DNA of 28,006 nt, from positions 1 through 28,006 of IMG/VR virus record IMGVR_UViG_3300035663_000079. The stretch is one strand, 5' to 3'. The position numbers and the translations under genes were made by a program. Below the pieces are notes generated by a model, which was not told the origin of the DNA, searched no databases, and saw nothing but the letters and a program-made list of their open reading frames with translations. The stretch's first letter is position 1; the number at the start of each line of letters is the position of its first letter. This stretch comes from a virus. Shown piece after piece: positions 2,789-16,153 of this stretch.

Positions 2789-2805
2789 GTAAACTTTTTG
2801 TTTAC
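2789..2805 (+). other. Small hairpin in the 5' leader
   Basis: GTAAAC, a TTTTT loop, and GTTTAC form a perfect six-base-pair hairpin. It lies about ten bases downstream of the late octamer, so it would be at the very 5' end of the transcript, where stabilising hairpins are common. It could also contribute to a sigma70-like promoter (TTTACT at 2801-2806, TAGTAT at 2823-2828). Confidence 0.4.
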
Positions 2806-2830
2806 TCATGCGTTAATAGTAATAGTATAG

Positions 2831-2891
2831 TTAATATTAAGTTGCTCTGCGAGATATTAACTTAGTCCGTAAGGATAAGAGAGCATTTTTT
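2831..2891 (+). ncRNA. Candidate structured leader RNA (pseudoknot plus hairpin and U-tract)
   Basis: Three pairings fit together. TTAATAT (2831-2837) can pair with ATATTAA (2854-2860). TGCTCT (2843-2848), which lies in that loop, pairs with AGAGCA (2880-2885), making an H-type pseudoknot. Between them CTTA/TAAG and TCC/GGA (2861-2879) form a seven-base-pair hairpin with one bulged G and a GTAA loop of the GNRA class. The last stem is followed by TTTTTT (2886-2891), as in an intrinsic terminator. The ATG of the exported peptide follows 14 bases later with no clear Shine-Dalgarno. I could not match it to a known riboswitch or ribozyme family. The structure is inferred by eye only. Confidence 0.45.
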
Positions 2892-2904: not shown

Positions 2905-3048
2905 ATGAAACAATTATTCGCAACACTATTTGCTGCACTTTTCGCAGTAAGCGCATTTGCAGCAGATGCTAAGAAAGAAGAAAAGAAAGACGCTCCTAAA
3001 GCAGAAGCTAAGAAAGAAGAAAAGAAAGACGCTCCTGCAAAAAAATAA
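2905..3048 (+). CDS. Short exported Lys/Glu/Ala-rich peptide, 47 aa
   Basis: The product has a textbook Sec signal peptide: MK at the N-terminus, a hydrophobic core of Leu, Phe and Ala, and a signal peptidase I site SAFA-A at about residues 16-20. The mature part is about 28 residues, of which nearly all are Lys, Glu, Asp, Ala or Pro, with KKEEKKDAP present twice. It should be exported to the periplasm and be disordered. Similar tiny proteins occur in betaproteobacterial genomes as far as I recall, so host origin is possible; this was not checked. It ends at a TAA directly after an A7 run (see the next gene). Function is unknown. Confidence 0.7.
   Translation: MKQLFATLFAALFAVSAFAADAKKEEKKDAPKAEAKKEEKKDAPAKK
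2968..3036 (+). repeat. Direct repeat of a 30-base coding unit
   Basis: The 30 bases at 2968-2997 recur exactly at 3007-3036, with nine bases between them. Each unit encodes AKKEEKKDAP. Identity at every third codon position points to a recent tandem duplication rather than selection on the protein alone. Confidence 0.85.
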
Positions 3049-3263
3049 TTTTAGCACGTCATAAAGACGTTGTACTACAACCTAAACAAGATTTTGATGA
3101 TGATTATGAAGTTTATGTATTTGATGATAGTATAGGACGTAATCTTACTAGAATTAGAATCGTTACAGAAAATGATGATATATCACCAAGAATTAAATTT
3201 AGGTTATGGTTAGCTAGGCAGTTAGCGTTAATCAAGTTTGATGAAGTATATCAAACAGTATAA
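3045..3263 (+). CDS. Small protein without a standard start codon; possible -1 frameshift product
   Basis: The frame encodes a coherent acidic protein (VVLQPKQDFDDDYEVYVF, later RIKFRLWLARQLALIKF) ending at 3263, but it has no ATG, GTG or TTG anywhere. Its first plausible codon is ATA at 3045, which would give an N-terminus reading (M)ILARHKD. This overlaps the TAA of the upstream peptide. The frame is exactly -1 to that peptide, and the upstream frame ends with A AAA AAA (3039-3045) followed at once by TAA, the classical slippery arrangement. Options are ATA/ATT initiation by coupling, programmed -1 frameshifting onto the peptide, a mutated start codon, or a homopolymer sequencing error. I recognise no family. 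Confidence 0.5.
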   Translation: MILARHKDVVLQPKQDFDDDYEVYVFDDSIGRNLTRIRIVTENDDISPRIKFRLWLARQLALIKFDEVYQTV

Positions 3264-3285
3264 AAGGCACTTCGGTGCCTTTTTT
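3262..3285 (+). terminator. Rho-independent terminator with TTCG loop
   Basis: AAAAGGCAC, a TTCG tetraloop, and GTGCCTTTT form a nine-base-pair stem that runs into six T residues (3280-3285). It overlaps the last codon of the upstream ORF and closes the exported-peptide cassette. Confidence 0.92.
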
Positions 3286-3302
3286 ATCCTAAGTCTTTGA
3301 CG
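3286..3302 (+). promoter_or_regulatory. ATCCTAA element next to a -35-like box
   Basis: ATCCTAA (3286-3292), four bases, then TTGACG (3297-3302). The same register recurs at four other places in the window. No good sigma70 -10 lies 17 bases on; instead a perfect late octamer is found at 3313. Confidence 0.4.
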
Positions 3303-3312
3303 CACTGCAACA

Positions 3313-3320
3313 TATAAATA
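3313..3320 (+). promoter_or_regulatory. T4 late promoter octamer TATAAATA
   Basis: This is an exact match to the T4 late consensus. It lies 31 bases before the ATG of the tiny-ORF cluster at 3352, leaving room for a normal leader with GGAGA at 3341-3345. Confidence 0.75.
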
Positions 3321-3881: not shown

Positions 3882-3906
3882 TATACAATAGTATATAGTA
3901 TAAATA
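3865..3906 (+). promoter_or_regulatory. Composite promoter: ATCCTAA element, sigma70-like boxes and late octamer
   Basis: ATCCTAA (3865-3871), four bases, TTGTAA (3876-3881), 17 bases, then TATAAA (3899-3904), which is also the first part of a perfect late octamer TATAAATA (3899-3906). It drives the gene at 3967. Confidence 0.6.
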
Positions 3907-3910
3907 CATT

Positions 3911-3933: not shown

Positions 3934-3966
3934 AGATAGACACATACACACAGAAAGGAGAGTAGC

Positions 3967-11654: not shown

Positions 11655-12536
11655 GTGGCTGCATATCAAACGCAAATGTATTTATATAATCAAAGACAAT
11701 ATGTAGTTTTATTAAGTTCTGCAGGATCTATTGCAACAAGGAGATATAGTACAGTGTATGCTAAACAACTAATGTTAAATCGTGGTGTTGATAATGTGCT
11801 TGAATTTGCATTTATTAATCAAGACCAAAAACCAATCAATTTGGCAGGAAAGTATTTGTATTTTCGTGTTCTAAACAATAATGGCACTGAGCTATTATTA
11901 ACCAAACAATTAACTCCTAACTTGCCCGTTACAGGTATTTTTAATTTAGAATTATCAATATCTGAAGTAAATCAAGTACCCCCACAATATTGCTACTATA
12001 CGATTGAATTAACCAATACACCGTGGGTTAATACGGATACCGCAGGATCTGCAGTATTTACTAATGCAAGTGGTATTGCACGTGGAGATTTGGTTATTAC
12101 TGATAGCATATTCCCCGCTGTTCTTCCATCATTAGATGTAACTATTCCTACCCATCCTAGACCAACACAGGGTAATGCAATGCAAGGTGGCAATAGTACA
12201 CAGCCACAACCAAAGACTTATTATAGTAGTGAAATAAAGAATGAAGATGCGCAAATGCTTACCCTTCAATATCGCATTGAAGAATTTTGTGGTAACATTA
12301 CTATAGAAGGTAGCAATATTGCAGACTTTTCACGTGCTTATAGTATTGGTAACACTGTTGTTTATGGCAATGCCAATGCCTTACCTTATCCTACAGGCGT
12401 AACTCAAACAGTTGGCGAGACTATCACAGGATATCATCCATATGTTAGACTAGCGATTCAAAATTACGGTAGTGGACCACCTGAAACAAATCAGCAGTAC
12501 TTAAAAGGTGATGTTGTTAAAATTCTTGCTAGATAA
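11655..12536 (+). CDS. Virion structural protein with BppU-like N-terminal domain, 293 aa
   Basis: Starts on GTG at 11655, chosen for AAGGA nine bases upstream and the late octamer. Residues about 38-125 resemble the N-terminal Ig-like domain found on phage baseplate/fibre adaptor proteins (BppU_N type): LEFAFINQDQKPINLAGKYL, a G-x-F-x-L-E-L strand, and YCYYTIEL. A Pro/Gln/Asn-rich linker at about 160-190 leads to a second beta domain that ends in LKGDVVKILAR. Composition is Asn/Thr/Gln-rich with few charges, as expected of a tail or fibre-associated protein. The exact position in the virion is not known. Confidence 0.75.
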   Translation: MAAYQTQMYLYNQRQYVVLLSSAGSIATRRYSTVYAKQLMLNRGVDNVLEFAFINQDQKPINLAGKYLYFRVLNNNGTELLLTKQLTPNLPVTGIFNLELSISEVNQVPPQYCYYTIELTNTPWVNTDTAGSAVFTNASGIARGDLVITDSIFPAVLPSLDVTIPTHPRPTQGNAMQGGNSTQPQPKTYYSSEIKNEDAQMLTLQYRIEEFCGNITIEGSNIADFSRAYSIGNTVVYGNANALPYPTGVTQTVGETITGYHPYVRLAIQNYGSGPPETNQQYLKGDVVKILAR

Positions 12537-15225: not shown

Positions 15226-16153
15226 TTTTGTACTAGAAGATTTGGATCAAGTTTTTAGTGCAATTAGACAACAACTTGATCGCAGAGATCCGTCTAAAAT
15301 TCAAACGGACAATGCAGCTATTAGTGCAAAAATCAAAGCTACACTACAAGCATATCCTACATGGGCACAACAAACACGTGAATTAGCGGGATATCAACCT
15401 CCTACTACGGTTGATCAACCAACTAGTTATCAAATGGGTGTGGGACCAAAAAAGATAGCACAAACCACTGCACAACAGCGTCAAGTCCAACAAAAAACTA
15501 AGCAGGATATGTTGCCTACACCTAATTTAAAGGCAGCACCTACATCTATAGCAGGATATGATGCTAAACGTGCTGCGGCAGCTACTAGAGCACAAGCTGA
15601 TATGAGGCGTGGTAAACCACCTGATTATACAACACCTATGCCAACCTTAGTGCGTCAACGACAAGCACGTGGTATGACTGAAGGTAAGTTTAGTGATTTA
15701 TATGCTTTATTAGAGTCTGCCATACTTGAACAACAACAAGACCCAGGTAGCTTTACTAATTACCTAAAAACCATTGTAAAATTTGATCCAAGTAAAAGTG
15801 ATCCTGTTTATAAACAACAGATTCAAATGATTGAAAAATTATACAATGAGAATAAAAAAGATGAAGCAGAAAGAGAAGCAGCACAAATATTAGAGCTAAT
15901 TTATAAGCAACAATTATTAAAAAGTAGAACAGGCTCAGCAACAAGTGATGTAGGTTCGTTTGATGACTATGATAAAACCAACGTAAATAAGTTTTTAACT
16001 AATGTACGTGCTAATTATTATAATGAAGATGAACTTACAAACATTGTTTTATATTCTTTGCTCAAGTTAAAAACAAAATATCCACAGCAGTTTAACCAAA
16101 TAACTGCGGATATTGACAGTACTTTAGCCAACTATCAAAAACAAATTACCTAA
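15218..16153 (+). CDS. Probable structural/assembly protein, 311 aa
   Basis: Three parts: a helical N-terminus (FVLEDLDQVFSAIRQQLDRR), a long low-complexity middle rich in Gln, Thr, Ala and Pro (about residues 55-145) and a helical C-terminal half that begins with MTEGKFSDLYALLESAILEQ. The low-complexity middle is probably disordered. No enzyme motif is present. Linkage to the late gene at 14980 (eight-base overlap) and the composition suggest a late virion or scaffold protein; this is inference. It is followed by a T-rich stretch without a convincing stem-loop. Confidence 0.65.
   Translation: MNNFVLEDLDQVFSAIRQQLDRRDPSKIQTDNAAISAKIKATLQAYPTWAQQTRELAGYQPPTTVDQPTSYQMGVGPKKIAQTTAQQRQVQQKTKQDMLPTPNLKAAPTSIAGYDAKRAAAATRAQADMRRGKPPDYTTPMPTLVRQRQARGMTEGKFSDLYALLESAILEQQQDPGSFTNYLKTIVKFDPSKSDPVYKQQIQMIEKLYNENKKDEAEREAAQILELIYKQQLLKSRTGSATSDVGSFDDYDKTNVNKFLTNVRANYYNEDELTNIVLYSLLKLKTKYPQQFNQITADIDSTLANYQKQIT

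Follow-up and report, generated by a model that had tools for sequence, protein, structure and literature searches.

To our knowledge, structured leaders in phage mRNAs have been documented for only a few phages. Folded leaders with which a new case can be compared include the preQ1-II riboswitch, an H-type pseudoknot in a leader with a hairpin inserted in its last loop, and the ompA-type stabilizing hairpins at mRNA 5′ ends. In the gene 32 mRNA of phages T4 and RB69, the leader has a 5′-terminal pseudoknot, behind which the A/U-rich start region is unstructured (PMC535899), and passages of two further reports describe pseudoknot riboswitches that control terminators (PMC11625349, PMC11077080).

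We examined a 28,006-nt stretch of viral DNA (IMG/VR record IMGVR_UViG_3300035663_000079; hereafter, the window), in which a candidate RNA element precedes the gene of a short exported peptide. The source fragment belongs to a phage, encoding a ribonucleotide reductase and a DnaB-like helicase, and the UvsW-like helicase of the window is ∼50% identical to the versions of jumbo phages (e.g., Phosso and Atu_ph07). Carriers of the element are a small set of freshwater phage fragments, kin of giant phages. In our preferred reading, positions 2829–2891 form a folded leader that acts in cis, is specific to one clade, and lies close to the 5′ end of the mRNA for the exported peptide and its probable recoded extension; it would replace the simple 5′ hairpin of relatives. 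We put this reading at about even odds (probability ∼0.5). The leader is likely to be a genuine regulatory element, though one of narrow distribution, and it could possibly act as a riboswitch or terminator. The locus allows a before-and-after comparison, setting the plain 5′ hairpin of free sequence found in relatives against the conserved, pseudoknot-capable leader of one clade.

Among the known systems, the T4/RB69 gene 32 leader has the closest layout, sharing pseudoknot potential near the 5′ end and an A/U-rich start region, with both the 5′ end and the pseudoknot being predictions in our case. The leader described here differs in its extra hairpin (P4), in the U-tract after helix P2, and in the gene that follows, which encodes a Lys-rich exported peptide and not a single-strand binding protein; with a 47-aa signal-peptide peptide downstream, it falls outside the gene 32-type operators. 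It is unlike preQ1-II and other pseudoknot riboswitches in having no Rfam match, and in a gene content and distribution that do not fit; in those riboswitches the ribosome-binding site lies within a pseudoknot stem, whereas here six U residues (U6) follow the stem. Like ompA-type hairpins, the structures of this family lie at or near the presumed 5′ end and vary in sequence among relatives, but the version of the window's clade is nearly invariant, larger, and pseudoknot-capable.

Predicted folding of the leader and its transcription unit

The transcription unit lies on the + strand behind a gene for a 54-aa protein of unassigned function (2607–2771), which has no PHROG match and served as the neighbor for gathering relatives. 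A promoter-like bipartite motif, TAAAC-N16-CGTT (2790–2814), comes next; its family consensus, T[CA]AAC-N16/17-CGTTATATAT, occupies the corresponding site ahead of the peptide gene in almost every relative that has this gene. Across eight phage contigs the motif had 12 exact matches, compared with none for the reversed pattern. Seven motif sites were fetched, of which one preceded another copy of the peptide gene, four preceded other signal-peptide or lipoprotein genes, and two preceded neither. From these positions the motif looks like a promoter for a set of exported-protein genes, and the genes behind it could make up a regulon served by a dedicated sigma factor or activator; the fixed spacing of the motif hints at a promoter of the ECF type. 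No standard sigma-70 promoter was found at the leader by scan. We also noted TCAAC-N16/17-CGTTATATA before several exported-protein genes (signal peptides and one lipoprotein) of freshwater phages (window 2790–2814; L111–L113, L116, and L117). A preliminary description of this DNA had placed the leader in a late transcript; this placement finds no support, as the leader has its own promoter-like motif and no late-type TATAAATA lies directly upstream. Boxes resembling TATAAATA, typical of T4-like phages, were seen by eye before other genes (3313–3320 and 3899–3907).

The interleaved helices and inner hairpin that had been described are all present where described, and helix P1 is in fact larger, with 10 bp: its 5′ strand AGUUAAUAUU (2829–2838) pairs with GAUAUUAACU (2853–2862), giving the strongest helix by RNAfold. 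P2 (6 bp) joins UGCUCU (2843–2848), within the P1 loop, to AGAGCA (2880–2885); it crosses P1 and, as had been proposed, directly precedes the U tract (U6; 2886–2891). The P4 hairpin, GUCC-GUAA-GGAU (2865–2876), lies between the 3′ strands of P1 and P2, in the last loop of the pseudoknot. Next come an A/U-rich ribosome-binding region with a weak Shine–Dalgarno sequence, AAAGAAA (2892–2904; AAAGGAAA in relatives lacking the element), and the peptide gene (2905–3048), whose 47-aa, Lys/Ala-rich product has a signal-peptide-like N-terminus, bearing out the earlier claim about the gene downstream. In PHROG the gene matches one unnamed family, and that only marginally; no Pfam match exceeds the cut-off. 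The unit ends in an ordinary terminator hairpin, GGCAC-UUCG-GUGCC-U6 (3262–3290), which the scan reports for the minus strand.

When the leader was dinucleotide-shuffled 2000 times, a pseudoknot of similar size arose in 243 cases (12%), and one with an adjacent U-tract in a single case, by a criterion that was chosen post hoc and with shuffling that breaks up U-tracts. The same rule was satisfied at one other site of the window, on the minus strand (about + strand 16055–16146; search windows from reverse-complement position 11861 onward). Nested folding of the leader was not significant relative to shuffles (RNAfold z of −1.0 to −1.6). Computed energies are close, at −9.7 kcal/mol for P1 plus P4 and −10.8 kcal/mol for a nested, terminator-like fold (CUUA/UAAG plus P2); the P2 duplex alone has −7.0 kcal/mol. 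Where 2877 is U instead of A, the nested stem shifts register and is still predicted. Taken as a terminator stem, P2 has G–C in three of its six pairs, an adjoining U6 and a 31-nt loop, and a standard terminator scan did not match it.

Conservation of the element and the leaders of relatives

Relatives were gathered through the upstream 54-aa gene (116 in viral contigs), and the loci inspected comprised 80 with this gene and 80 with a downstream gene. In pattern and protein searches of viral contigs, the element turned up in seven in addition to the window, amounting, within the collections searched, to eight contigs and four distinct versions, always as a single copy per contig ahead of the peptide gene. 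Six of the seven are close relatives. The most diverged carrier, L128, was the one true new homolog among the matches listed when viral and genome contigs were scanned with relaxed DNA patterns; the other inspected matches of these patterns, including those in bacterial contigs (L244 and L245), were attributed to chance. The covariance model R1 found one copy per element-bearing contig searched and no credible copy in 17 other phage contigs (up to 525 kb); across 20 whole phage contigs and 89 loci it returned no additional copy, and the element is absent at its weak match in L306. Phage and plasmid records, searched as DNA and protein, gave no match to the leader region or to ORF2, the reading frame that extends beyond the peptide gene. 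That the preliminary description had recognized no riboswitch or ribozyme pattern in the element agrees with Rfam, where no family reached its gathering score and only chance matches of snoRNA, sRNA, or lncRNA type appeared at E up to 10 (E of 0.27 or worse).

Between L128 and the window, the element differs at three of 63 sites (5%) plus one insertion, compared with 21 of 59 sites (36%) in the spacer that separates it from the upstream gene and three of 13 (23%) between U6 and the start codon. Coding neighbors have diverged on both sides; ORF2 differs at 25 of 68 residues, with dS values of 0.94 and 1.02 for L128 against two contigs closely related to the window. The low divergence of the element relative to the spacer therefore provides strong evidence that these 63 bases, loops included, are under selection, and loops are conserved as strongly as stems. 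The changes seen are 2853 G>A, which turns a U·G into a U–A pair in P1; 2877 A>U, which lengthens P4; 2879 G>U, a G·U possibly lengthening P2; an extra U in the loop of P1; and a U-tract of six or seven. The P1 5′ strand is kept in all element-bearing contigs, the P2 5′ strand is invariant, and all P1 pairs and the core pairs of P2 and P4 are intact in all four versions. No pair is altered on both sides among the four, so the structure is compatible with the data rather than proven, and the constraint could lie on the sequence (through DNA or protein binding) and not on the structure.

No other relative with the peptide gene has the element. Leaders were assessed with a hairpin test, covering the 44 in which motif and Shine–Dalgarno lie 20 nt or more apart and requiring a hairpin that starts within 6 nt of the region start; 38 had one, compared with 3.6 expected from shuffles. 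The six without it comprise the four of the window's clade (where P1 starts later and is A/U-rich) and the short L074 and L077. Outside this clade, 38 of the 40 testable leaders carry a simple hairpin at the same place behind the conserved promoter-like motif, and wherever motif and Shine–Dalgarno are at least 29 nt apart it comes right after the motif (38 of 38). Stems are varied (GUAGA/UCUAC, ACACAG/CUGUGU, UAGACAG/CUGUCUG, and CGCAGAC/GUCUGCG), and L021–L108 show the 5′ hairpin at a fixed position just after CGTTATATAT with many stem sequences. In a sequence-based alignment of the relatives' leaders the arms are put out of register by differing loop lengths, and RNAalifold accordingly gave no structure, which is why we scored hairpins one sequence at a time relative to shuffles. 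In six relatives the leader is too short to form a hairpin, and L074 and L077 have none either, so the family can evidently do without a structured leader. U-runs follow the hairpin in some relatives (L026, L031, and L068) but not in most, which means that the family as a whole is not marked by a terminator. What its members typically share is a predicted 5′ hairpin of free sequence; in the window's clade this position is taken by P1 together with the remaining parts of the element.

Possible modes of action

If the element is a cis-acting folded leader, transcription would start just upstream of P1, with a 5′ end near 2824–2829. P1 would form first and shield the mRNA 5′ end, P4 would follow, and P2, once transcribed, would close the pseudoknot as the polymerase reaches U6. 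The balance between P1-based folds and the nested stem at U6 could then set the passage of RNA polymerase or ribosomes into the peptide gene. The similar energies of the folds and the approximately −7 kcal/mol of P2 make such a switch physically plausible, and the clade's weak Shine–Dalgarno is also compatible with translational control. The data do not let us decide firmly among attenuation, protein binding, and simple 5′ protection; that the loops hardly vary points to a role beyond mere protection of the 5′ end.

The riboswitch-like reading of the preliminary description survives in part: a compact, conserved, pseudoknot-capable sequence with a terminal U-tract is there, but eight contigs with no covariation do not bear out riboswitch function. 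That description would have given up the reading if homologs kept the peptide gene and showed no compensatory changes in the stems. None are seen, and other relatives keep the gene without the element, usually with an ordinary hairpin; by this rule the riboswitch claim fails, and the element is still clearly constrained. A ligand-sensing riboswitch of a new class, with the pseudoknot as aptamer and P2 before U6 as terminator stem, is in our view unlikely. Loops conserved like stems, a U-tract that stays at 6–7, and an H-type pseudoknot with an extra hairpin in its last loop, as in preQ1-II, would all suit it. So would the pseudoknot riboswitches controlling terminators that are described in passages of earlier reports (PMC11625349, PMC11077080). 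There is, however, no Rfam match even at permissive thresholds, and the controlled gene would be that of an exported Lys-rich peptide, neither a transporter nor a biosynthetic gene. Where a riboswitch class would show a conserved aptamer with covarying helices in distant genomes, we found four versions in one small clade, with no covariation. We are similarly doubtful of a protein-bound operator of translation or decay in the manner of T4 gene 32, in which a 5′-terminal pseudoknot would nucleate the spread of a phage protein over the A/U-rich start. The layout resembles that of T4/RB69 gene 32 (PMC535899) and sequence conservation is extreme, loops included, but because the gene product is not a single-strand binding protein, autoregulation of the gp32 type would not be expected.

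The conserved sequence might also act as DNA. The two arms of P1 make up an inverted repeat, AGTTAATATT-N14-GATATTAACT, with no compensatory changes and directly behind the promoter-like motif, and could be an operator downstream of the promoter, with U6 serving only as an unstructured ribosome-landing stretch. We consider this quite improbable: the repeat is not found at the same phages' other promoters, and the pairing of P2 and P4 together with the U6 would have to be coincidence. Very unlikely, finally, is a plain conserved spacer, in which a functionless pseudoknot would owe its pairing to chance and its conservation to recent spread of the segment. It is true that 12% of shuffles give a similar pseudoknot without the U-tract and that the close clade shows little intergenic divergence in general (2%–6% differences), but in L128 the flanking noncoding sequence differs by 36% and 23% against 5% for the element, with diverged coding neighbors on both sides.

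An HDV-like ribozyme was considered and rejected. Such ribozymes are double pseudoknots with a P3 hairpin between P2 and the P1 3′ strand and a catalytic C; here only 4 nt (GCGA, 2849–2852) separate the two, leaving no room for P3.

Probable recoding of the peptide gene

Downstream from the leader, the peptide gene of the window ends in GCA AAA AAA TAA, and ORF2 (3048–3263; 71 codons), a conserved C-terminal extension with no ATG, GTG, or TTG start, continues in the −1 frame. The candidate −1 frameshift site, A_AAA_AAA (3039–3045), adjoins the peptide stop; in L128, where the gene ends in GAA AAA AAG TAA and the shift would also be −1, it is A_AAA_AAG. One or the other heptamer stands right before the stop in all nine distinct −1 members. 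In 37 other distinct relatives the C-terminal ORF, with the same end motif, lies in the +1 frame, and the last codon is always AAA or AAG before UAA or UGA. Among these 37, a single one has an ATG, GTG, or TTG within 30 nt of the stop, and in 11 the open frame lacks all three up to the C-terminal block. A TTG lies shortly past the stop in five members of the −1 group, where reinitiation is therefore possible; the window and its close clade have none. The median dN/dS of ORF2 was 0.26 for the +1 form (64 pairs) and 0.24 for the −1 form (10 pairs), with all pairs below one; the pairs are not independent, and a shifted-frame control gave no usable values. By these ratios ORF2 is under coding selection. 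A slippery heptamer in the zero frame before the stop is followed by a selected −1 ORF, the combination by which −1 frameshifting is recognized, and the peptide gene is likely recoded by programmed frameshifting. The pseudoknot itself, ∼150 nt upstream of the shift site, was rejected as a frameshift stimulator.

In Listeria phages, −1 and +1 shifts reach a comparable extension in different phages (A118/A500 and PSA) (PMC5009743). Likewise, −1 and +1 arrangements both occur in the present family, as in phage programmed frameshifting of tail chaperone and Listeria coat and tail genes; unlike in those cases, the product is a signal-peptide peptide and the candidate shift site adjoins the stop (A_AAA_AAA UAA or AAR URA). 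The putative +1 shift at Lys–stop in relatives resembles the AAA-UAA sites of Euplotes, for which passages of one report describe +1 shifting (PMC5011710). The leader's own transcription unit carries an apparent, widely conserved recoding of an exported peptide, for which the annotated phage records searched gave no counterpart. A broader proposal, to which we give a low probability, would make the leader a new RNA class of freshwater jumbo-type phages: a pseudoknot gated by ligand or protein, with P2 as terminator stem, controlling an exported peptide that gains a C-terminal domain through a frameshift at the stop codon (−1 here and +1 in relatives). The arrangement of peptide gene and start-less ORF2 was seen in the window (3039–3263), in L128 just after the peptide gene (which starts at 3948), and in many relatives (L015–L110 and L253–L311).
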